Origin: Bacteroidales bacterium
Lineage (GTDB): Bacteria > Bacteroidota > Bacteroidia > Bacteroidales > UBA932
Assembly (NCBI GenBank): GCA_023667095.1
Contig: JAMPAT010000015.1
Location: forward strand, 1 to 64,000
Direction of reading: 5' to 3'
DNA: 64,000 bases
Shown here one piece after another: positions 2,810 to 61,847 of the stretch (the stretch's first letter is position 1; each line of letters opens with the position of its first letter). A program made the position numbers and the translations under genes. The notes under the pieces were generated by a model. That model did no database searches, had not been told where the DNA came from, and saw only the letters and a program-made list of their open reading frames with translations.

Positions 2810-4150
2810 ATGCATATAAAACTGATACAGCCTCTCATGCACATGCGCCCGATGGATACTCATCTGAAGAACCGTATGTCTCCTCCGCTGGGCCTTTACA
2901 CTATAGTCAATATGTTCAGGGATGAACACACTGTCACTGTTGAAAATGAGAATGTACAGAATCTGAATCTTGCAGACATTCCCGACATTGTCGGTATCTC
3001 CGTGAACGTGGATTCTTTGCCAAGGGCTCTTGAGATTGCAAAAATATATCTGGGAAAGGCCGTTCCTGTTGTATTGGGTGGGATACTTCCCACAACGGCA
3101 CCAGAAATTATTCCTGATATGAATAACCTGGTCTTGTGCATCGGTGCTGCGGAAGGTACTTGGCCGGATATCATAAATGACCTTGGGGCTGGCTGCCTGA
3201 AAAAGAAATATATATGTCAGCACGGCTTTACAGGTGACATGATAGTCCCGCCAGCGTATAATCTGATTCCGTCAGGACTGTATCTCTACCGGAATATTTT
3301 TCACACCAGCCGCGGCTGTCCGTTCAGATGCGACTTCTGCTACAACAGTTCCAATGAAAGATGGTATGTCTGCCGGCCTGTCGGGGATGTGGTCAAGGAG
3401 GTGAGCGAGTGTGGAATGAAGCATATAATGTTCATAGACGACAATTTCATAGGAAATGTCAGGTGGACACGTGAACTGATGAAGGAACTCAAAAGGATGA
3501 AGGTGAAATGGAATGCAGCAGTTTCAATAAATGTTGTCAACATACCTGGTCTTCTGGATGAGATGATGGACAGTGGCTGCCAGGGGCTTTTCATAGGATT
3601 CGAGAGTGTCAATCCGTCATCCGTAAGCGGAGTGCATAAGGTCCAGAATGATGTATCCATGTATGAACATGCTGTGGAGGAAATCCATAGGAGGGGGATA
3701 ATGATAAATGCGAGCTTCGTCTTTGGTCTTGACAGTGATACCCCTGAGACGTTTCGGGCCACACTTGACTGGATTGTACGCAACAGGATAGAGACCGTCA
3801 CTTCGCACATCCTTACTCCATATCCAGGTACTGAACTGTATCGCCGTATGAAAGACGAAGGGAGGTTGCTGACCGATGATCTCGGGCTGTATGACACGGC
3901 CCATGTCGTATTCCGCCCCAAGAATATGACCAAGGAGGAGCTATATGACGGTTATATCTGGATGTATGACCAGATATACAGCTTCAGGAACATAATAAGG
4001 AGACTTCCACTGGCAGCCCGGCAGATTCCTGCATACCTGATGTTCAACTTCTTCTACCGCAAATGGGGCCGTTTCACAGACTGGCTGTGCCGGAGGATTA
4101 CCTATGAACGCATCGGCAGGTGGGGAGAGCGGTTGTCGCGGTATATGTGA
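2810..4150 (+). CDS. B12-binding-domain radical SAM protein
   Basis: 446 residues. Residues 1-125 look like a cobalamin-binding (Rossmann) domain: PPLGLYTI near 25, IPDIVGISVN near 60 and VPVVLGGILPTT near 85. The radical SAM core follows, with the CX3CX2C cluster motif in RGCPFRCDFCYNS (about residue 170). FIDDNFIGN, FIGFES and FGLDSDTPETF are typical barrel motifs, and TPYPGTEL is the usual late motif of the B12-type family. Such enzymes act on varied substrates (methylation, ring formation, hopanoid or lipid modification); the substrate here cannot be read from sequence. The last 46 codons have a diverged copy at 5721-5858, on the far side of the convergent ATPase gene, so a second paralogue once stood there. 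Confidence 0.85.
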   Translation: MHIKLIQPLMHMRPMDTHLKNRMSPPLGLYTIVNMFRDEHTVTVENENVQNLNLADIPDIVGISVNVDSLPRALEIAKIYLGKAVPVVLGGILPTTAPEIIPDMNNLVLCIGAAEGTWPDIINDLGAGCLKKKYICQHGFTGDMIVPPAYNLIPSGLYLYRNIFHTSRGCPFRCDFCYNSSNERWYVCRPVGDVVKEVSECGMKHIMFIDDNFIGNVRWTRELMKELKRMKVKWNAAVSINVVNIPGLLDEMMDSGCQGLFIGFESVNPSSVSGVHKVQNDVSMYEHAVEEIHRRGIMINASFVFGLDSDTPETFRATLDWIVRNRIETVTSHILTPYPGTELYRRMKDEGRLLTDDLGLYDTAHVVFRPKNMTKEELYDGYIWMYDQIYSFRNIIRRLPLAARQIPAYLMFNFFYRKWGRFTDWLCRRITYERIGRWGERLSRYM

Positions 4151-4191
4151 TGGTATAATCCATTGCAGGAACATGTTCAGATTGCTGCCAC

Positions 4192-5544
4192 CTAAAGGAG
4201 CCCTGCCATATATACAGGCAGGCATATTATGTCCTGCTCCTTGCGCATATCCTTAGTGTATAGAAGATAGCGTTCCTTAATCCGTGACGAGAATTTTTTC
4301 TGGAACTCGTCAAGCGATTTGTGGGACTTATAGCCTGATGATTTCACTTCAATGGGACATATTTTATCTTTCCGGCTTATCAGGAAGTCTATCTCGTAGA
4401 CGCGTGGCTCGTCTGAATTCTCAGTGTATTCTTTGAAAGTATAGTAATAGAGCGAATGTCCTGCACTTCTAAGTATCTGTGCCACGGCATTTTCATATAC
4501 ATAGCCTAAATCTGCTGACAATTTGTCCGAGAGCAGTTTGCGGTATATTTCATTGTCTGTGAAATCTTTATCCATAAATGCCAGTGTGATGAACAACCCC
4601 GTGTCGGCAAGAAAAATCTTGAAGAAATCATAATCTGCATGCAGGGCGAATCCTACTCCAGGGTCATTTGCGTGATGGGCAAAATTTACTGTCTTGGAAT
4701 CCTCAAGTTCGGCAAATATGCCTTCTGTCCTTGATGGCCGTGCATTAGGGATGACGCTACCGATCTTGTAACGTAAGACGTTGCGTGACAATTGTGATGG
4801 GACAGACGAGAATATAGCTGACACCTTTCCTGATATGTCAATTTTTCGGAAATCATCTGTATAAAGCCTGATTATATCACGTTTTATATTGTCCACCTTG
4901 CTGAAATCATTGTATTTCAGATATGCTTCAACAGCTTGAGGCATTCCTCCGACAAGCATGTATAGTCTGAATTCACGCATAAGGGCGCGGTGAGTTGAAT
5001 CACCGAAGGGAGTCATATCCTCGTATGATTTACGTATCAGTTCATAGTACATTGGTTTGCCTACAGCCCATAGGAATTCCTCGAAATCCATAGGATGCAT
5101 AGATATCCTATGTTCTTCACTTGGTATCAGTATGTCTTTTACATTCTTCTTGATAGACAAAAGTGAACCAGTCTCGATATAGTCATACCTGCCATCCTTT
5201 ACAAGATGCTTGATTGCCTGGCGTGCCTTAGGGCACAGCTGGACTTCATCAAAGACAATAACTGATTCTCTTGTAATTAATTGCCTGCCTGTAAGTACCT
5301 GCAATCTAAGAAAAAAGAAGTCTCGGTCAGCTATATTGTCGAACAGATTCAGAATTTCAGATTTGACATCAGAGAAGTCAATGATAATGTATGTGGCATA
5401 TTCATTTCTCGCAAACTCTTCTACGATAGTTGATTTTCCTATGCGCCTGGCTCCTTCGACAAGAAGTGCTGAAGTGCCGTCCGACTGTCTTTTCCAGTCA
5501 AGCATTCTGGAATATATCTTACGCTTGAATATTAACTCGCTCAT
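4192..5544 (-). CDS. AAA ATPase with DUF4143-type C-terminal domain
   Basis: 450 residues. The N-terminal ATPase domain has Walker A GARRIGKST (about 31-39), Walker B VIVFDEVQ (about 95-102) and the TGSLLS sensor-like motif (about 126). The C-terminal domain carries YEIDFLISRKDK followed by CPIEVKSSG, a D-x(n)-ExK arrangement like that of PD-(D/E)XK nucleases, normal for DUF4143 ATPases. These are common, highly mobile accessory genes of unproven function. Immediately upstream are three direct repeats at 33-bp spacing (5581-5663). The gene is convergent with the radical SAM gene and lies between that gene's intact 3' end and a copied 3' end, indicating insertion into a former tandem duplication. 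Confidence 0.85.
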   Translation of the reverse strand: MSELIFKRKIYSRMLDWKRQSDGTSALLVEGARRIGKSTIVEEFARNEYATYIIIDFSDVKSEILNLFDNIADRDFFFLRLQVLTGRQLITRESVIVFDEVQLCPKARQAIKHLVKDGRYDYIETGSLLSIKKNVKDILIPSEEHRISMHPMDFEEFLWAVGKPMYYELIRKSYEDMTPFGDSTHRALMREFRLYMLVGGMPQAVEAYLKYNDFSKVDNIKRDIIRLYTDDFRKIDISGKVSAIFSSVPSQLSRNVLRYKIGSVIPNARPSRTEGIFAELEDSKTVNFAHHANDPGVGFALHADYDFFKIFLADTGLFITLAFMDKDFTDNEIYRKLLSDKLSADLGYVYENAVAQILRSAGHSLYYYTFKEYTENSDEPRVYEIDFLISRKDKICPIEVKSSGYKSHKSLDEFQKKFSSRIKERYLLYTKDMRKEQDIICLPVYMAGLL

Positions 5545-5580
5545 AATATGTTGTATTTCAAGGCAAATATAGTATATATG

Positions 5581-5663
5581 TACGAAACGGTAAAATTTTT
5601 AGCGCGTATTTTGTACGGAACGGTAAAATTTTAAATCTATAAATTGCACGAAACGGTAAAAAG
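5581..5663. repeat. Three iteron-like direct repeats, 33-bp period, upstream of the ATPase
   Basis: Copies of ACGAAACGGTAAAA start at 5582, 5615 (ACGGAACGG...) and 5648, so the period is exactly 33 bp, or three helical turns. The first two copies extend by TTTT. The block begins 37 bases upstream of the ATPase start codon (5544, minus strand). Regular helical phasing suggests a cooperative protein-binding site, perhaps autoregulatory. A different repeat sequence with the same 33-bp phase precedes the second ATPase (6571-6652). Confidence 0.8.
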
Positions 5664-5720
5664 TCAAAGCGCATTTAGCATTGCCGCCTTCTTTATGGAG
5701 CCATTGCCTTTATTTTTAGG

Positions 5721-5858
5721 ACAGCCAGTCAGATTCCTGCATACCTGATGTTCAACTTCTTCTACCGCAAATGGGGCCGTTTCACAGACTGGCTGTGCCA
5801 GAAGATTACCTACGAGCGTATTGGCCGGTGGGGTGAGCGGCTGTCAAGGTATATGTGA
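5721..5858 (+). pseudogene. 3' fragment of a second radical SAM gene
   Basis: 46 codons ending in TGA match the last 46 codons of the radical SAM gene at 2810-4150, with the same reading frame and stop. Many differences are synonymous third-base changes; the protein differs mainly at RR to QK before ITYERIGRW and in the first few residues. This indicates an old paralogue that was still under selection before its 5' part was lost. The bases before 5721 carry no further match. No start codon or promoter is evident. Confidence 0.85.
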
Positions 5859-5987
5859 TGGAGCAGACGTGGCAGGATAACAGGCATAATCAATGTCAGA
5901 TGACCCTCTCCAAAAAATAGAACTGTCTTTATGTGAAATCATAATATCTCGAAAATATTTCCTACCTTTAGGCGGATTTGACGGGAT

Positions 5988-6479
5988 ATGGCGTACCCGG
6001 ACCACAACGTGTTTTGTCAAATGACGGAATGGTTTTATAATGGGGAGGATGCAGATATGTCATTGCCGATAAATATAGAAGATTTGCTGCACAGAAACAA
6101 GCTGGAAAATAGCCGTGTAGAGTTCAAAAGTCACCGTATCAGCTATTCCCTTATGTTCATTCCTGTGCATGATGGAAGTGGAGGCGTAGTGGAGATGAAT
6201 GGTACTCAAGAGAACCGGTATGTACATTTCGGTGACTTCGACCTCGCCGGCATAAATATATTCCTTACGGAATTTCATCGGTATCTCGGCTCCCGTTCAT
6301 CATTTCTCATCCCGGCAGACATAGAATCGCGTATTGTCAAGGGCTCTGTAGAACGATATGATGCCCAATACGCAAGGTTCCACAACCTTTCGACAGACAT
6401 TCCGGAACTTCAGACCCTTATCGGACTGATAAACCGCCACCACCGCTGCTATGATCAGGAGGGGTATATCTTGGGATGA
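5988..6479 (+). pseudogene. Composite remnant: AlbA/Schlafen-type start joined to a toprim-like C-terminal piece
   Basis: The 163-codon frame is open but looks like two unrelated pieces. Residues 25-50 (INIEDLLHRNKLENSRVEFK) match the opening of Schlafen/AlbA-type putative DNA-binding proteins. From about residue 77 the text changes to YVHFGDFDLAGINIF, then a region ending HHRCYDQEGY. That resembles the toprim-like DFD segment and C-end of proteins such as Wadjet JetD or DUF7281 types; this family guess is from memory of motifs. Neither piece is complete. I infer deletion-fusion of two decayed defence-type genes. The frame may be translated, but a normal function is unlikely. Confidence 0.5.
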
Positions 6480-6570
6480 AACCGAAGTGTAGCCCTCAAT
6501 TAAAAGTGGTACGCCCGAACAGGCTGTGTCGTTCTAAAATGATAGACATATGTTGAAAAGACATTTATAT

Positions 6571-6652
6571 CCCCATAAAAATGTAATGAACTTACATTTA
6601 TTCGCTCATAAAAATGTGAAAACACCTTGAATATTCCCCAATAAAAGTGTAG
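6571..6652. repeat. Three direct repeats, 33-bp period, upstream of the second ATPase
   Basis: ATAAAAATGT, ATAAAAATGT and ATAAAAGTGT begin at 6575, 6608 and 6641, exactly 33 bp apart. Each is preceded by a C-rich CCC/CTC tract (two copies read CCCC just before). The block ends 30 bases before the ATPase start at 6682. The repeat sequence differs completely from that at 5581-5663, but number, phase and distance to the gene are nearly the same, which argues for a specific site recognised by each ATPase or a linked factor. Confidence 0.8.
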
Positions 6653-6681
6653 TTTTGCATGCGTATAAATAAGCTAAATGT

Positions 6682-8007
6682 ATGAAACGCAGTATATATA
6701 GCCAATTGTTGGCTTGGAAGACATCGCCACGAAGAAAGCCTATGATGCTTTACGGTGCCCGTCAGGTTGGTAAGACCTATATTCTCAAAGAATTTGGAAG
6801 AAATGAATTTGAAAATATGGTATATATCAACTGCTACAGGAATCCTGATGTAGAAACGCTGTTTGGACAGGACAAGGATGTCAAGCGGATTCTGCTAGGG
6901 CTCACGGCTTTAAGCGGACAGGAGATAAAGGAAGGCAAGACACTGGTGTTCCTTGATGAAGTCCAGGATATCCCTGATGTCGTTGCTTCCCTGAAATATT
7001 TCTGTGAGGATGCTCCGGGGATTGTTGTGGTTGCAGCAGGGTCTTTGTTGGGCGTGCTAAACATGGAAGGGAAGTCTTTCCCGACGGGGAAGGTCGACAT
7101 AATCCACATGTATCCGATGACATTTGAGGAATTTGCCACGGCTCTTGGTGAAGATAAAATGGTGTCCTTGCTAAATGAACCTCACCAGGAGGAACTTGTA
7201 AATGCGTTGCTTCCAAAATATGTGGAACTTCTTCGACAGTATTATTTTGTCGGTGGAATGCCTGAAGTAGTGGCAGAATTTGTCAACAGCCGTACTTCAA
7301 AGGCTGTAAGGAAAATACAGTTGGATATACTTGCTGCATACGATGCAGATATTGCAAAGCATGCAGGCAGGGAAACTCAAAAGGCAAGGATGGTGTTTCA
7401 GTCAATTCCTGCGCAGCTGGCCAAAGAAAACAAGAAATTTGTCTTTGGAGCATTGAAGAAGGGGGCCCGTGCTGCGGAATACGAAAATGCTATACAATGG
7501 CTTGTAGATGCCGGCCTGGTCTATAAAGTGCCCCGCTTGTCAAAAGTTGACCTGCCACTCAAATTTTACATGGACAAGGATGCCTTTAAACTTTTTGTGC
7601 TTGATGTAGGGCTTTTAGGAGCTATGGCTCAGATACCATCTTCCCTTATGCTTATCGGTAACAGTGTGTTTTCTGACTATAAAGGAGCGTTTGCCGAAAA
7701 TTATGTGCTTACCCAGATGATAAGTGTTCCGGAAACAGTCTTAGGATATTATTCAAAAGACAATTCCACAATGGAACTTGACTTTATTGTCCAGGTCGGT
7801 AGCCACCTTCTGCCTGTCGAAGTTAAGGCAGAAGAAAATGTTAAATCAAAGTCCCTCCGGCAGTTTATAACAGTCGATAAGGCAGATAGCGGCCTGTGCG
7901 GCATACGCTTCTCAATGAAAGGCTACATCAGCCAGGACTGGATGAAAAATGTTCCGCTGTTTGCAGTGCATCCGTTTGTAATGGGGATTTTGCTATCAAA
8001 TACATAA
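6682..8007 (+). CDS. AAA ATPase with DUF4143-type C-terminal domain
   Basis: 441 residues, same architecture as the gene at 4192-5544 but strongly diverged in sequence. Walker A GARQVGKTY (about 25-33), Walker B TLVFLDEVQD (about 89-98), AAGSLLGV, then YPMTFEEFA. The C-terminal domain has TMELDFIVQ followed by LPVEVKAEENVKSKSL, the D...ExK pattern of a PD-(D/E)XK-like fold. The ATG at 6682 is the natural start: it directly follows the 33-bp repeat block and gives the usual KRSIYSQLLAWK N-terminus. Biological role of this family is unproven. Confidence 0.87.
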   Translation: MKRSIYSQLLAWKTSPRRKPMMLYGARQVGKTYILKEFGRNEFENMVYINCYRNPDVETLFGQDKDVKRILLGLTALSGQEIKEGKTLVFLDEVQDIPDVVASLKYFCEDAPGIVVVAAGSLLGVLNMEGKSFPTGKVDIIHMYPMTFEEFATALGEDKMVSLLNEPHQEELVNALLPKYVELLRQYYFVGGMPEVVAEFVNSRTSKAVRKIQLDILAAYDADIAKHAGRETQKARMVFQSIPAQLAKENKKFVFGALKKGARAAEYENAIQWLVDAGLVYKVPRLSKVDLPLKFYMDKDAFKLFVLDVGLLGAMAQIPSSLMLIGNSVFSDYKGAFAENYVLTQMISVPETVLGYYSKDNSTMELDFIVQVGSHLLPVEVKAEENVKSKSLRQFITVDKADSGLCGIRFSMKGYISQDWMKNVPLFAVHPFVMGILLSNT

Positions 8008-8029: not shown

Positions 8030-8170
8030 AATATCACAGAGATACGTACATATCTGAATTATTACAAGCGGTTAATGGAACAACTTGGTATTCCTGAATT
8101 GAAGTTTCATGGTCTACGTCATAGCTTTGCTACACACTGCATAGAAAGCAATTGTGTTGACGTTTTGAGT
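8030..8170 (+). pseudogene. Tyrosine recombinase (integrase) fragment
   Basis: The frame reads TYLNYYKRLMEQLGIPELK followed by FHGLRHSFATHCIESNC. HGLRHSFATH is the conserved HxLRHxxAT box of phage-type integrases. The sequence then departs from the family where the stretch before the catalytic Tyr should follow, and there is no Tyr active-site motif. The N-terminal catalytic Arg region is absent too. It is a short relic of a mobile element next to the 3' end of the P-type ATPase gene. Confidence 0.7.
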
Positions 8171-8227
8171 GATGCTCGACAAGGAACAAACTTGTCGTAT
8201 CGTTTGCCAGTCTGGAACATGCTAAGC

Positions 8228-10141
8228 TTATGGCAATTTGCGCCCCCTCAACGCCCGCATGGCGTTGAGGACGGCGAGGACCATGACGCCGACGTCGGCG
8301 AAGATGGCGAGCCACATGTTGACGATGCCGAAGATGCCGAGTAGGAGACAGAGGAATTTCACTCCGAGGGCGAGGGCTATGTTCTCGCGGACTATGCGGA
8401 GGCATTTGCGTGAGATTCTGATAGCCTTGCTGATTTTGACCGGGTCATCGTCCATCAGGACCACATCTGCGGCTTCAATTGCTGCATCGCTTCCCATCGC
8501 TCCCATTGCGATGCCTATGTCTGCACGGGACAGGACCGGGGCATCATTGATTCCGTCTCCGACAAAAGCTGTCTTTTCCCCGTCCTTTGCCGATGCGATT
8601 ATCTTTTCGAGCTGTTCCACCTTGCCTGCAGGCAGCAGGCCGCTGTAGAACTGGTCTATTCCCAATTGTCTTGCAACCTGCTCTGCTACCGGATAGGCGT
8701 CCCCGGTAAGCATTACCGTATGTCTCACACCTGAATTGTGCAGTTCTGCAATTGCCTTTGCTGATGCATCTTTTACAACATCTCCAAGGACAATGTGTCC
8801 GCGGTATTCCCCGTTCACGGCTATATGCACGATTGTCCCTGCTGTATTGCACTCACATGGCCTGATACCGATGCTGTTCATCAGCTTGTCGTTTCCTACA
8901 GCAACTTTTTCACCGTCAATCGTAGCCATAATGCCATGGCCGCCTATTTCCTGGAGATCAGAAATCCTGCTGCGGTCAATGTCCTTTCCGTATGCCTGCA
9001 ACAGCGATTTTGCGATAGGATGGGATGATGCAGACTCTGCAATTGCCGCCTTCTCAATCAGTTCCGCCCGCTCGGCGTCCATTTTCCTGTCATCGCTCCT
9101 GTGCACAGCATTGACCTCAAACACGCCTTTGGTCAATGTCCCTGTCTTGTCGAAGACGACCGTCCGCACCTTTGACAATGTCTCCAGGATGTTGGCTCCC
9201 TTGACCAGTATGCCCTGCCTGCTTGCACCGCCGATTCCTGCGAAGAAAGAAAGTGGAATGCTTATCACCAATGCGCATGGACAGCTGATCACGAGGAAGG
9301 TAAGTGCCCTGTATATCCATGTCCCGAATGTTTCGAACGCGAATGGTGCGCCGCTGAAGGCGATAAGGAACAATGGAGGCAGAAGGGCAAGGGCCAACGC
9401 GCTATAGCATACGGCAGGGGTGTATATGCGTGCAAACTTTGCAATGAAATTCTCTGATTTTGATTTGCGCGAAGCGGAATCCTCCACAAGTTCAAGGATT
9501 CTGGATACGGTTGATTCACCGAATTGCTTTGTTGTACGTATTTTAAGGACTCCCGTCATGTTGATGCATCCGCTTATGACTTCGTCCCCGTCCTGGACTT
9601 CGCGTGGCAGAGACTCTCCGGTGAGGGCGGAAGTGTTGAGGGATGATGTTCCGGACACGACAATGCCGTCAATCGGGACCTTTTCTCCCGGCTGTACCAC
9701 AATCACATTCCCGACAGCAACATCATCCGGGTCTGTCCTGACTATCTTCCCGTCTTTCTCGATGTTGGCATAGTCCGGGCGTATATCCATCAGTGCAGCT
9801 ATGTTGCTGCGGCTTTTTCCGACTGCATAGCTCTGGAAAAATTCCCCGGTCTGGTAGAACAGCATGACTGCAATGGCTTCGAGATAGTCACCGCTCTTTT
9901 CATAGAGTGCAAGCGCAAATGCGCCTATTGTCGCGACTGCCATCAGAAAATTTTCATCGAAGACCCTGCCGTGTATGATTCCGAGCAAAGCCTTTTTCAG
10001 AATGTCATATCCTATAATCAGATAGACTGTCAGATATAGTGCCAGCCGCAGCATTCCTTCTGTCGCGAAAAATTGCAGCACGACCGTCATTGCGAATGCA
10101 AGGACTATCCTCGTAAGCATGTAGATTTGTTTTCTGTTCAT
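8228..10141 (-). CDS. Heavy-metal-exporting P-type ATPase (P1B, ZntA/CadA-like)
   Basis: 637 residues. All hallmark motifs are present: TGES in the actuator domain (about residue 174), SCPCALV metal-binding CPC in the membrane (about 288), phosphorylation site DKTGTLTKG (about 334), the HP motif (SSHPIA) and GDGINDAP (about 547). This cytoplasmic-membrane pump exports divalent or soft metals such as Zn, Cd, Pb or Co; CPC favours Zn/Cd/Pb but does not fix the ion. There is no N-terminal metal-binding domain in this protein. That domain is supplied as a separate small gene 69 bases upstream (10211-10426). A Fur-family regulator is divergently encoded. Confidence 0.92.
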   Translation of the reverse strand: MNRKQIYMLTRIVLAFAMTVVLQFFATEGMLRLALYLTVYLIIGYDILKKALLGIIHGRVFDENFLMAVATIGAFALALYEKSGDYLEAIAVMLFYQTGEFFQSYAVGKSRSNIAALMDIRPDYANIEKDGKIVRTDPDDVAVGNVIVVQPGEKVPIDGIVVSGTSSLNTSALTGESLPREVQDGDEVISGCINMTGVLKIRTTKQFGESTVSRILELVEDSASRKSKSENFIAKFARIYTPAVCYSALALALLPPLFLIAFSGAPFAFETFGTWIYRALTFLVISCPCALVISIPLSFFAGIGGASRQGILVKGANILETLSKVRTVVFDKTGTLTKGVFEVNAVHRSDDRKMDAERAELIEKAAIAESASSHPIAKSLLQAYGKDIDRSRISDLQEIGGHGIMATIDGEKVAVGNDKLMNSIGIRPCECNTAGTIVHIAVNGEYRGHIVLGDVVKDASAKAIAELHNSGVRHTVMLTGDAYPVAEQVARQLGIDQFYSGLLPAGKVEQLEKIIASAKDGEKTAFVGDGINDAPVLSRADIGIAMGAMGSDAAIEAADVVLMDDDPVKISKAIRISRKCLRIVRENIALALGVKFLCLLLGIFGIVNMWLAIFADVGVMVLAVLNAMRALRGRKLP

Positions 10142-52770: not shown

Positions 52771-53523
52771 ATGGGACAGAAAACTAACCCTATCAGCAAC
52801 AGAATCGGTATCACCCGTGGTTGGGACTCTAACTGGTGTGGTGGTAACTATGCAGAGAAGATAGCTGAGGATTATGAGATCCGCAAGTATCTCGTAAACC
52901 GTCTTGCTAAGGCCAGCCTTTCAAAGATTGTGATTGAGAGGACACTTAAGCTTATCACAGTGACTATTCACGCAGCACGTCCAGGTGTTATCATCGGAAA
53001 AGGTGGAGCTGAGGTTGACAAACTGAAGGAAGAGCTTAAGAAAGTTACCAAGAAGGATGTTCAGATCAACATCTTCGAGGTCAAGAAGCCAGAGGTTGAT
53101 GCACATATCGTGGCAGACAGCATTGCACGTCAGATTGAGGGCCGTGTTTCATACAGAAGGGCAATCAAGATGGCAGTCGCTACTACCATGAGGGTAGGTG
53201 CAGAAGGTATCAAGGTTCAGATCAGCGGCCGTCTCGGCGGTGCTGAAATGGCAAGAAGCGAGATGTTCAAGGAAGGACGTACACCTCTCCATACATTCCG
53301 TGCAGATATCGACTATGCGCTTGCAGAAGCTCACACAAAGGTCGGTGTACTCGGTATCAAGGTATGGATCTGCAACGGTGAGGTTTACGGAAAGAAAGAC
53401 CTTTCACCAAACGCAGGCATCGCTGCAGCAAACGCTTCACAGGGCGGTAACAACCGTGGTGGACGTGGTGGAGACCGCCGCCGTGGTGGACGTGACCGTC
53501 GTGACCGTAAGGAGAACAAGTAA
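52771..53523 (+). CDS. rpsC: Ribosomal protein S3
   Basis: 250 residues. [19 protein letters not shown] start, KH domain with [16 protein letters not shown], and the C-terminal domain with [14 protein letters not shown]. The tail is Gly/Arg-rich ([18 protein letters not shown]), common in Bacteroidota. Last gene here: rplP and rpmC, which normally follow, are absent and a strong terminator comes 20 bases after the stop. Confidence 0.97.
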
Positions 53524-53543
53524 TTTGTTTCGATATTTTTCAG

Positions 53544-53576
53544 ACAGGCCAGCTGATTCAGCTGGCCTGTTTTTTT
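53544..53576 (+). terminator. Rho-independent terminator after rpsC
   Basis: ACAGGCCAGCTGA (53544-53556) pairs perfectly with TCAGCTGGCCTGT (53558-53570), followed by at least six further T. It ends the ribosomal operon at this point. Confidence 0.92.
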
Positions 53577-53605
53577 GTCCTGGAGGAATGGCACGGCGTC
53601 ATATC

Positions 53606-53670
53606 TTGCGATTTTGTAAAATACGTTTTGCAATTTTGTAAAATAGACATCCCTTCTTGCAATTTGAATT
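53606..53670. repeat. Direct repeats ahead of the ATPase relic
   Basis: TTGCGATTTTGTAAAATA (53606) and TTGCAATTTTGTAAAATA (53628) are 22 bp apart; a partial third (TTGCAATTTGAATTG) starts at 53657. Like the two intact DUF4143 ATPase genes, the relic keeps its own private repeat, here at a shorter period. Confidence 0.65.
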
Positions 53671-54084
53671 GTGAAGCAGAAGAATTCTGTTCCCAAGCTG
53701 CAGGTCTACAACAATGCATTCCGCAACCGGTTCTGCCAGCATACGTTCGATGAGGCCAGGATGAACAGGACTGAGTGGGGCCGTCAGGTTGAATCTGCAG
53801 TCGGTGCATATCTGGCAGGAAAATCTGTTACTGATGATTTTTCGCTCCTGTATTGGAGAAATGAAAGGAAGAAGGAATGCGACTATGTGCTTAAACGGGG
53901 TGAGAGGCTTGTTGCAATAGAGGTTAAAAGTGGGACGGCTGACAATGTGGATGGGTATCTTGAGTTCAAGAATAGATATGCAGACAATATTGTGCAGGCA
54001 TTTGTCATCGGTCCGGAAGGGCTTCCCCTTGAAGATTTCTTCTCCCTCAACGTAGATTCCCTGTTCTGCCGTACATACCTTTAG
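53671..54084 (+). pseudogene. C-terminal relic of a DUF4143-type ATPase
   Basis: About 137 codons. QVYNNAFRNRFCQHTF, RTEWGRQVESAVGAYLAG and ECDYVLKRGERLVAIEVKSG are the C-terminal DUF4143 half (D...ExK). The ATPase half with both Walker motifs is missing. The relic is directly joined to the upstream repeats, so an internal deletion removed everything between. The ATG at 53671 is probably not a real start. Confidence 0.8.
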
Positions 54085-60337: not shown

Positions 60338-61080
60338 GGCAAAAAATAGTGCTGTTTGGCACGCTTGGCTTTTGTAACCTATTGGTAACCAGTAATGTAT
60401 GATTTACTGCTGTGCCCAACGGTCAAGATAACATTCCGTTTGGCACGATGCTGATTTGCAATGTGTTGTCAATCAATGAAATGTGATTTTGCTGCGTGCC
60501 CAACGGCAAAAAAATAGTGCTGTTTGGCACGCTTGGCTTTTGTAACCTATTGGTAGCCAGCGATGTGTGATTTATTGCTGTGCCCAATGGTTAAGATAAC
60601 ATTCCGTTTGGCACGACGCTGATTTGCAATGTATTGTCAATCAATGAAATACAATTTTGTTGCGTGCCCAACGGCAGGAAAATAGTGCTGCTTGGCACGC
60701 GCTGTTTTTGTAATATGTTGGTAACCAGCGATGTATGATTTACTGCCGTGCCCAACGGTCAAGAAAACTTTCCGTTTGGCACGATGCTGATTTGCAATGT
60801 GTTGTCAATCAATGAAATGTAATTTTGCTGCGTGTCCAACGGCAGGAAAATAATGCTGTTTGGCACGCGCGGTTTTTGTAATATGTTGGTAACCAGTGAT
60901 GTGCGATTTACTGCTGTGCCCAACGGTCAAGATAACATTCCGTTTGGCACGATGCTGATTTGCAATGTGTTGTCAATCAATGAAATGTGATTTTGCTGCG
61001 TGCCCAACGGCAAAAAAATAGTGCTGTTTGGCACGCCTTGTTTTCGTAATGTGTTGGTAGTCAGCTGTGTGTGATTTGCG
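60338..61080. repeat. 168-bp tandem array made of two diverged 84-bp monomers
   Basis: GCTGTTTGGCACGC-type units start at 60351, 60519, 60687, 60855 and 61023, exactly 168 bp apart. Each unit holds two related 84-bp halves, one with TTGTAACCTATTGGTAACC, the other with TTGTCAATCAATGAAATGTG, and both ending in an inverted repeat GTGCCCAACGG ... CCGTTTGGCAC. On the minus strand each half reads as a 28-residue repeat LGTxxNHxxLxxNxLQ...VPN, with a stop in every second half (the TTATCTTGA type). Flanks 60048-60337 hold nothing but an extra degenerate edge. Confidence 0.92.
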
Positions 61081-61847
61081 GATGTCCCCAATGTCCCCAA
61101 AAATGTTACGTTGGGAACCATGCCTATTGGCAATATATTGTCAATCAATAAAGTGTGATTTACCAAAGTTCCCAATGTACAGGAACTCATTCCATTGCCT
61201 CCTGTCTATGCAGATAATTGCTAATCATGCCTGTATGATTTGCTGTGGCCCCATTGGCAGAGAATCATTGTGCTGGAAGCAGCATGGAAGTATTGACTGA
61301 ATTTTGCGCAGCTATGCAAAGAAAGCTCATGCCGTGGTGGACAACTGTGTGTTTTGCAAGCTTATAAGGCAGTATGCTGTGTATTTCCCACTTCTGAAAA
61401 AGTGACTGATTTCATGTGCTTTCCAGATAAATACATTTACTGGGTACAGCTCAATATGGACAGGAAACCAGGGCAGGCTTGATTTTTTCACACCGAAAGC
61501 TTGTCTTTTCAATCTTTTGTTGCAGTTGGCTGTTGAGTTTACCCTTTCTGTGTGATATTACGCCTGTTGACTTTACCTTTCCGGTGTAATGTTGCGCTTG
61601 CCTGCTGATTATGTCATTTTGTTATGCCATTGCATTTGCCAGTTGCCTCTGCACAAGGAAATAACTGGGGCTATGGAGGCGCATGCTATTGAAAAGGCCA
61701 TCGGAAATGCGGGATGCATTCCTCCTATAAAGCTAAAGAAATTGTTGACTTCTCCATTGCCATGTTGACATCTCCCGTTGTATGGAACGAAAAAGGCTGC
61801 ACCGTATGGATTACGGCACAGCCAGTCATTGTCTGCAGGAGATAGCC
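61081..61847. other. Gene-free flank with degenerate monomers and a 34-bp duplication
   Basis: 61081-61260 continues with decayed monomers (AATGTCCCCAAAAATG; TTGTCAATCAATAAAGTGTG). At 61530-61597 two 34-bp tandem copies start CTGTTGAGTTTACC and CTGTTGACTTTACC. No credible gene is seen. An open frame at 60927-61190 on the minus strand is made only of the repeat. Confidence 0.7.

Follow-up and report, generated by a model that had tools for sequence, protein, structure and literature searches.

Phased direct repeats upstream of PDC-S01 (AAA_14-DUF4143) ATPase genes form gene-private arrays that are probably self-read operators

The first 64,000 nucleotides of contig JAMPAT010000015.1 (forward strand; assembly GCA_023667095.1, Bacteroidales bacterium, UBA932), referred to here as the window, encode two ATPases (genes 1 and 2) with AAA_14 and DUF4143 domains, each gene preceded by an array of three direct repeats, along with the C-terminal relic of a third such gene (Table 1). 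Pfam matches for gene 1 are to AAA_14 (1.4e-22) and DUF4143 (1.3e-14). Both proteins match, over nearly their whole length, the PADLOC profile for PDC-S01 (6e-99 for gene 1 and 3.5e-168 for gene 2), a single-gene phage-defence candidate that corresponds to COG1373. The relic matches a PDC-S01 model over its C-terminal part, and a member of the KxC clade (defined below) is likewise assigned to PDC-S01 by PADLOC, placing all four in the same family.

Table 1. Coordinates of the PDC-S01 genes, the relic, and their candidate operator and promoter elements in the window.
Feature	Coordinates	Strand	Description	Basis
Gene 1	4192..5544	-	AAA_14-DUF4143 ATPase, PDC-S01 'long' clade, 450 aa	Pfam, PADLOC
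Gene 1 putative -7 element	5564..5571	-	TATATTTG, 7 bp from operator copy 1	Sequence reading
Gene 1 operator copy 1	5579..5595	-	Promoter-proximal, TTTTACCGTTTCGTACA in gene sense	Candidate site
Gene 1 operator copy 2	5612..5628	-	33 bp beyond copy 1	Candidate site
Gene 1 operator copy 3	5645..5661	-	33 bp beyond copy 2	Candidate site
Gene 2 operator copy 1	6572..6585	+	CCCATAAAAATGTA	Candidate site
Gene 2 operator copy 2	6605..6618	+	CTCATAAAAATGTG, 33 bp on	Candidate site
Gene 2 operator copy 3 (putative)	6638..6651	+	CCAATAAAAGTGTA, 33 bp on; ends with the -7 element's TA	
Gene 2 putative -7 element	6650..6657	+	TAGTTTTG, start exactly 7 nt past start of AAAAGTGT	Sequence, family register
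Gene 2	6682..8007	+	AAA_14-DUF4143 ATPase, PDC-S01 'long' clade, 441 aa	Pfam, PADLOC, AlphaFold2
Winged-helix region of gene 2	7366..7599	+	Residues 229-306, candidate operator reader	AlphaFold2, top covarying windows
Relic operator copy 1 (putative)	53606..53623	+	TTGCGATTTTGTAAAATA	18-mer
Relic operator copy 2 (putative)	53628..53645	+	22 bp on	18-mer
Relic	53671..54084	+	PDC-S01 gene reduced to its C-terminal DUF4143 part	PDLC04791 2.2e-35

A first-pass annotation of this DNA had reported three direct repeats at 33 bp before each of the two ATPase genes, with words that differ between them. The coordinates agree with ours, and the words are indeed different: that of gene 1, in gene sense, is TTTTACCGTTYCGTRCA (three 17-mers, 94-100% identical), and the gene 2 repeats have the core ATAAAARTGT. 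At lags of 12-59 the whole window holds only two triples that score at least 34/42, both at 33 bp and both before the AAA_14-DUF4143 ATPases, and dinucleotide shuffles of 220-bp upstream regions attain a score of 34 in 0-0.1% of cases. The same annotation took the two ATPases to be unrelated, which is incorrect: they are paralogues with 27% identity over 419 amino acids (E 6e-39) and belong to the same Pfam and PADLOC families. It also assigned another repeat to the relic, and here the 22-bp spacing is right, but there are two copies, not three. The relic pair (53606/53628) and a pair at 5582 are the only 18-mer pairs in the window that match at 17/18 or better. The array pattern itself is nearly certain to be real.

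The annotation had proposed looking for repeats upstream of other family members, and finding none would have refuted it. Across ~380 genes from many phyla, the repeats are found with a spacing that is fixed by clade. The main set comprises 272 distinct genes from the family and phylum of the source organism plus plasmids, with archaeal PDC-S01 members outside the sample; these genes are mutually related, so that counts are not independent events, yet words differ between genes. A strong triple was defined as 32 of 42, a level that shuffled upstream regions of the first sample attain in 0.1-0.2% of cases. Members of the KxC clade (Walker A G[PAT]K[WSYF]CGKT, ~420 amino acids) have a best lag of 23 in 83 of 97 cases and of 46 in another five (together 88/97). 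The long clade (GARQ[VI]GK[TS], 430-455 amino acids) has a best lag of 33 in 51/104 and 32 in 26/104, together 77 of the 104. Pair-lag spectra give the same picture, with peaks at 33/32 in the long clade, 23 and 46 in KxC, 32 in the GxRRxGK clade, and 22 or 32 in GPRQ[VTI]GK and short GARQ members. Some long-clade arrays combine a 32-bp and a 33-bp step, and every strong KxC array (66/66) is 23+23. Within the source genome there are 16 DUF4143 matches, with clear 33-bp triplets at seven of those loci (L002, L006, L008, L009, L010, L011 and L014) and a different word for each gene, even at the three adjacent paralogues (L008, L009 and L011).

Beyond the main set, 106 evaluable loci were drawn from GTDB species genomes and viral contigs. 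The best lag is 32/33 in 81 of these, as it is for 58 of their 59 strong triples. The titles of these records, many of which are metagenome bins, name Akkermansia, Spirochaetaceae, Treponema, Lachnospiraceae, Selenomonadaceae, Kiritimatiellae, Elusimicrobiaceae, Cloacimonadota, Cyanobacteria and Alphaproteobacteria. Phased repeats were also identified for plasmid members in Glaesserella, Collinsella, Criblamydia and Agathobacter. As a control, 200 upstream regions of other genes from the same loci yielded four strong triples, none at 32/33 and one at 23. The relic provides an independent test of the clade-spacing rule. Its protein is closest to GPRQ[VI]GK members of ~395 amino acids, and among its best matches five have a lag of 22 (L104, L102, L105, L101 and L128) and three lack a clear repeat (L130, L131 and L132). 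Thus, its 22-bp lag agrees with its clade.

The arrays can be found without reference to the gene. A gene-blind search of 300 genomes of the source's family for AAAARTGT occurring three times at 32/33 bp returned 30 loci, with a DUF4143 ATPase directly downstream in 27 and on the other side in one. All evaluable loci (28/28) therefore have the ATPase; the remaining two end 100-207 nt past the motif. The search also recovered contig C17 of the source genome, for which the domain search gave nothing. There, the fourth AAAARTGT triplet of this genome, with 33-bp spacing (C17 17962-18035; L484 2963-3036), precedes a second relic, in which a long-clade PDC-S01 protein is reduced to its final 40-50 residues (best match 49% over 41 amino acids, E 5e-9). 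The spaced motif thus recovers members, including relics, that domain searches miss. The C17 and window relics are alike in having kept the putative operator and C-terminus and lost the ATPase part. In viral contigs, searched for phage decoys, the phased pair of gene 1 was not found. The AAAARTGT triple occurs there at 42 loci, three with the ATPase (a count made without a reversed-pattern control), and many of the ATPase-less loci resemble coding tandem repeats or palindromic sites. On four phage contigs (L444, L449, L460 and L476), phased AAAARTGT triplets resemble the ATPase operators although no ATPase was detected within 1.7 kb; they may be chance occurrences, phage operators or decoys.

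The Bacteroidota -7 promoter consensus is TAnnTTTG. The distance between AAAARTG[TC] copies in long-clade arrays is 33 (71 times), 32 (47) or 66 (7), and TAnnTTTG starts at +7 of the AAAARTGT start in 30 cases (next commonest offset, 3). Gene 2 follows this register, with its last AAAARTGT-type word at 6643-6650 running into the -7 element. Thus, as would be expected of an autoregulatory operator, a site in this clade abuts or overlaps the promoter of its gene at a fixed register. The simplest reading for the long clade is repression, because protein bound at the promoter-abutting copy should block RNA polymerase, and we consider repression of its own promoter, rather than activation, reasonably likely.

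The word of gene 1 is private within its genome: all of its zero-mismatch occurrences in the 3.3 Mb are at its own promoter. A regulon reading was rejected: with two mismatches allowed, the word is found at two further places, against five for a reversed-pattern control. Three mutually similar same-strand sites in the window (22558, 25460 and 28670) are each three mismatches from the gene 1 word; one falls in a reading frame with NVEAL, and these are possibly NVEALA-type peptide genes. The words of KxC members form families that match protein subclades. Repeat distance correlates with protein distance (Mantel 0.61 for KxC, n=71; 0.30 for the long clade, n=90), and does so more clearly over disjoint nearest (sister) pairs (0.76 and 0.67, respectively). 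Where relatives share 70-80% protein identity, the identity of their site cores is 72% and that of their spacers 49%, with some bias in favour of the cores, which were aligned for best match.

Two alternatives bear directly on these words. The repeats could be bound by a third-party host regulator, as might be suggested by an AAAARTGT common to many long-clade members. Such a regulator is quite improbable given that words differ among paralogues of the same genome, including the three adjacent ones, that the gene 1 word is absent elsewhere in its genome, and that words track ATPase sequence across species. The arrays might instead be phased A-tracts that act through intrinsic DNA curvature or UP-element-like stimulation of the promoter: AAAAA is present in many long-clade words and the spacings are near whole helical turns. 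Yet many KxC words (e.g., GGCCAACTGCCACAT and AATCCGGGCGGATAA) have no A-tract and are still exactly 23 bp apart, and curvature does not predict gene-private words, leaving this the least probable of the explanations considered here.

The operator word is likely read by the winged helix of the encoded ATPase. An AlphaFold2 model of the gene 2 protein, built from 68 sequences (pLDDT 95), places a winged helix at residues 229-306 (helices 229-246 and 264-276; strands 280-286 and 297-306). In the long clade (n=90), once overall distance is removed, all 20 of the top 20 protein windows whose divergence correlates with repeat distance lie within the winged helix, where 3.7 would be expected. They fall at 237-253, 260-269 and 284-295, corresponding to the turn, the start of the recognition helix and the wing. 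The top window value is 0.211, compared with a 99% permutation value of 0.160; the windows overlap, and the permutation leaves some relatedness in. A KxC partial Mantel peak near the recognition helix was seen at first and disappeared with a refined measure. The strongest column-level associations with the bases 5' of AAAARTGT involve K388 and K390 of gene 2, which are in the C-terminal domain, outside the winged helix.

Eight residues (G30, K31, D92, E93, E365, D367, E380 and K382), which include Walker A/B, are invariant across 68 relatives, and the last four are predicted to be the nuclease residues of a PD-(D/E)XK domain. The nearest solved folds to the gene 2 model are a Pyrococcus Walker-type ATPase (2qen), Orc1/Cdc6 on origin DNA, and MalT, at TM-scores of 0.25-0.45. 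Both the invariant residues and these folds would fit an array that serves as a licence or parking site for the nuclease, where ATP-loaded protein would be held inactive, with displacement by an invader, and not promoter control, as its main purpose. We regard this as very improbable: the likeness to these proteins is fold resemblance alone, and parking is compatible with autorepression rather than replacing it.

We conclude, in line with the self-recognised operator suggested in the first-pass annotation, that the array is probably a self-read, helically phased autoregulatory operator of its own ATPase. Each gene of the PDC-S01 family, encoding an AAA_14 ATPase, a winged helix and a DUF4143 PD-(D/E)XK nuclease, would carry a cis operator of its own. 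This would consist of between two and five near-identical sites, most often three, which share one helix face, lie 22/23 bp (two turns) or 32/33 bp (three turns) apart, and overlap or abut the promoter. The encoded ATPase would bind these sites directly through its winged helix, with adjacent subunits of an oligomer on the sites and the spacing set by the geometry of that oligomer. Bound in this way, it would occlude the -7/-33 region and so repress its own promoter. The word would co-evolve with the protein, such that the many paralogues in one genome would not cross-regulate.

Several results weigh against this proposal or narrow its reach. The GPRQ[SCA]GK clade shows no peak in the pair-lag spectra; thus, phased repeats are not universal in DUF4143 ATPases. 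None were found upstream of the AAA_14-DUF4143 gene of Thermus pTT27 (L486, ~11074). Arrays of the KxC clade have no fixed promoter register and are further upstream (centre of the last copy at -67), so activation is possible there. No protein region stands out in covariation with the repeat in KxC. For the long clade, column-level mutual information gives no winged-helix enrichment (1, 2 and 5 of the 10, 20 and 30 best pairs are located there), and a contact-segment test on sister pairs reached p ~0.02 with segments picked after the fact.

Just 5' of the start of the Thermus gene is a palindrome, TGAATGACTATCATTCA, which may be another kind of operator used by that clade. Thermus TT_P0211 is up 6.6-fold with a plasmid present (PMC4406477). 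We set this induction aside as evidence, since the gene (equated with the pTT27 gene by position and product) lacks phased direct repeats upstream and the result does not transfer.

Close relatives often share just the operator and the gene, and thus the operator travels with the gene. For 25 of 33 close-relative pairs (at least 80% DNA identity), upstream homology breaks off between -60 and -170, close to the outer limit of the array, and downstream it commonly ends at the stop codon, even at 91-95% identity. Gene 1 and its putative operator are flanked by a 140-bp direct duplication (4014-4153 and 5722-5861, 91% identical) of the 3' end of a radical SAM/B12-binding gene (2810-4150), as if they had arrived by recombination at the end of that gene. 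A search of 60 same-genus genomes for an empty site identified one relative that has the neighbouring gene and no ATPase beside it, and it is too diverged (68-71%) for dating the insertion of gene 1.

These boundaries, the flanking copies around gene 1, and the presence of COG1373 on a list of genes shared through recent transfer (PMC10782964) could mean that the repeats belong to a mobile unit (e.g., as the end of a transposon, a homing site or an iteron origin) on which the ATPase-nuclease acts, with regulation secondary. In every locus scanned, further copies of a gene's own repeat were absent downstream of the gene, within it and far upstream, and there was no terminal pair. Without a second array, the boundaries of the shared unit are not evidence for a transposon end. 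Rep-type and transposase domains are also lacking: Pfam assigns the window ATPases AAA_14, DUF4143 and weak ATPase/NERD matches only, and PHROGs and NCBIfam give zero matches. The replication-like iteron block suggested in the first-pass annotation is thus not supported. A promoter-fixed register is a requirement of an operator, not of an end, and we consider the mobile-unit explanation unlikely.

Other features of the window were noted. A short open reading frame between the two ATPases (5988-6479) matches the C-terminal part of DUF7281 (PF23947) and is likely truncated. Just past gene 2 (8075-8344) is a weak, below-cut-off match to the C-terminus of tyrosine recombinases (PF00589), probably an integrase fragment. 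In the stretch 53523-53671, the S10 ribosomal operon ends after rpsC with a terminator-like hairpin, and the PDC-S01 relic comes next; rplP (L16) is on another contig (C50:97231-97617). A tandem array of 84/168-bp units occupies 60341-61161 (TRF score 1138).

PDC-S01 is the fourth most common defence across prokaryotes in a 2026 survey, which states that most such candidates await experimental validation (PMC12988326), and it tops the individual loci by frequency in a rumen-genome survey (PMC13356809). In the open-access literature, where DUF4143 is named in one paper and COG1373 in seven, we found, as far as the accessible text extends, no operator, mechanism or regulation for PDC-S01, DUF4143 or COG1373; subscription papers and preprints are outside that scope and may hold an earlier description of the array.

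A clade-quantised, gene-private array offers a first handle on the regulation of this very common candidate defence family. If the arrays are operators, they predict the DNA target of each protein, its subunit arrangement (two or three turns) and the promoter to watch for induction, and paralogues in the same cell with different DNA words form a natural series for learning how specificity changes. Whether the array has a direct part in a defence switch is doubtful, although such a role is conceivable. One speculative version, to which we give a similarly low weight, is that PDC-S01 is a self-sensing defence nuclease: an oligomer on its private array, counting the sites by helical geometry, would silence both gene and nuclease until a release signal, either invading DNA or an altered ATP state, displaced it and armed the system. 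Were this true, the spacing of the array and its word would both contribute to the defence mechanism, and each of a genome's many paralogues would act as a sensor insulated from the others and independent of them.

The putative operator array is the feature added here to PDC-S01, for which none is described in the open-access literature searched. It has parallels in three known systems. Like Orc1/Cdc6, PDC-S01 combines an AAA-type ATPase, a winged helix and repeated DNA sites, and 2v1u and 2qby are among the neighbours of the AlphaFold2 model. Unlike in Orc1/Cdc6, the sites are at the gene's own promoter and a nuclease domain follows, and the TM-scores (0.27-0.28) indicate likeness at the level of the fold. 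Iterons are direct repeats about two helical turns apart that precede the gene of their binding protein. The arrangement in iteron-Rep plasmids is similar in that direct repeats precede the gene of the protein proposed to bind them, but PDC-S01 lacks a Rep domain, has many chromosomal members, shows three-turn spacing in its largest clade and has a register tied to the promoter. MalT oligomers bind several phased sites, and MalT activates other operons. PDC-S01 resembles MalT and related STAND regulators in its STAND-like ATPase fold (8bob is among the fold matches) and differs in that its array is private to the encoding gene and a nuclease replaces the sensor repeat domain.
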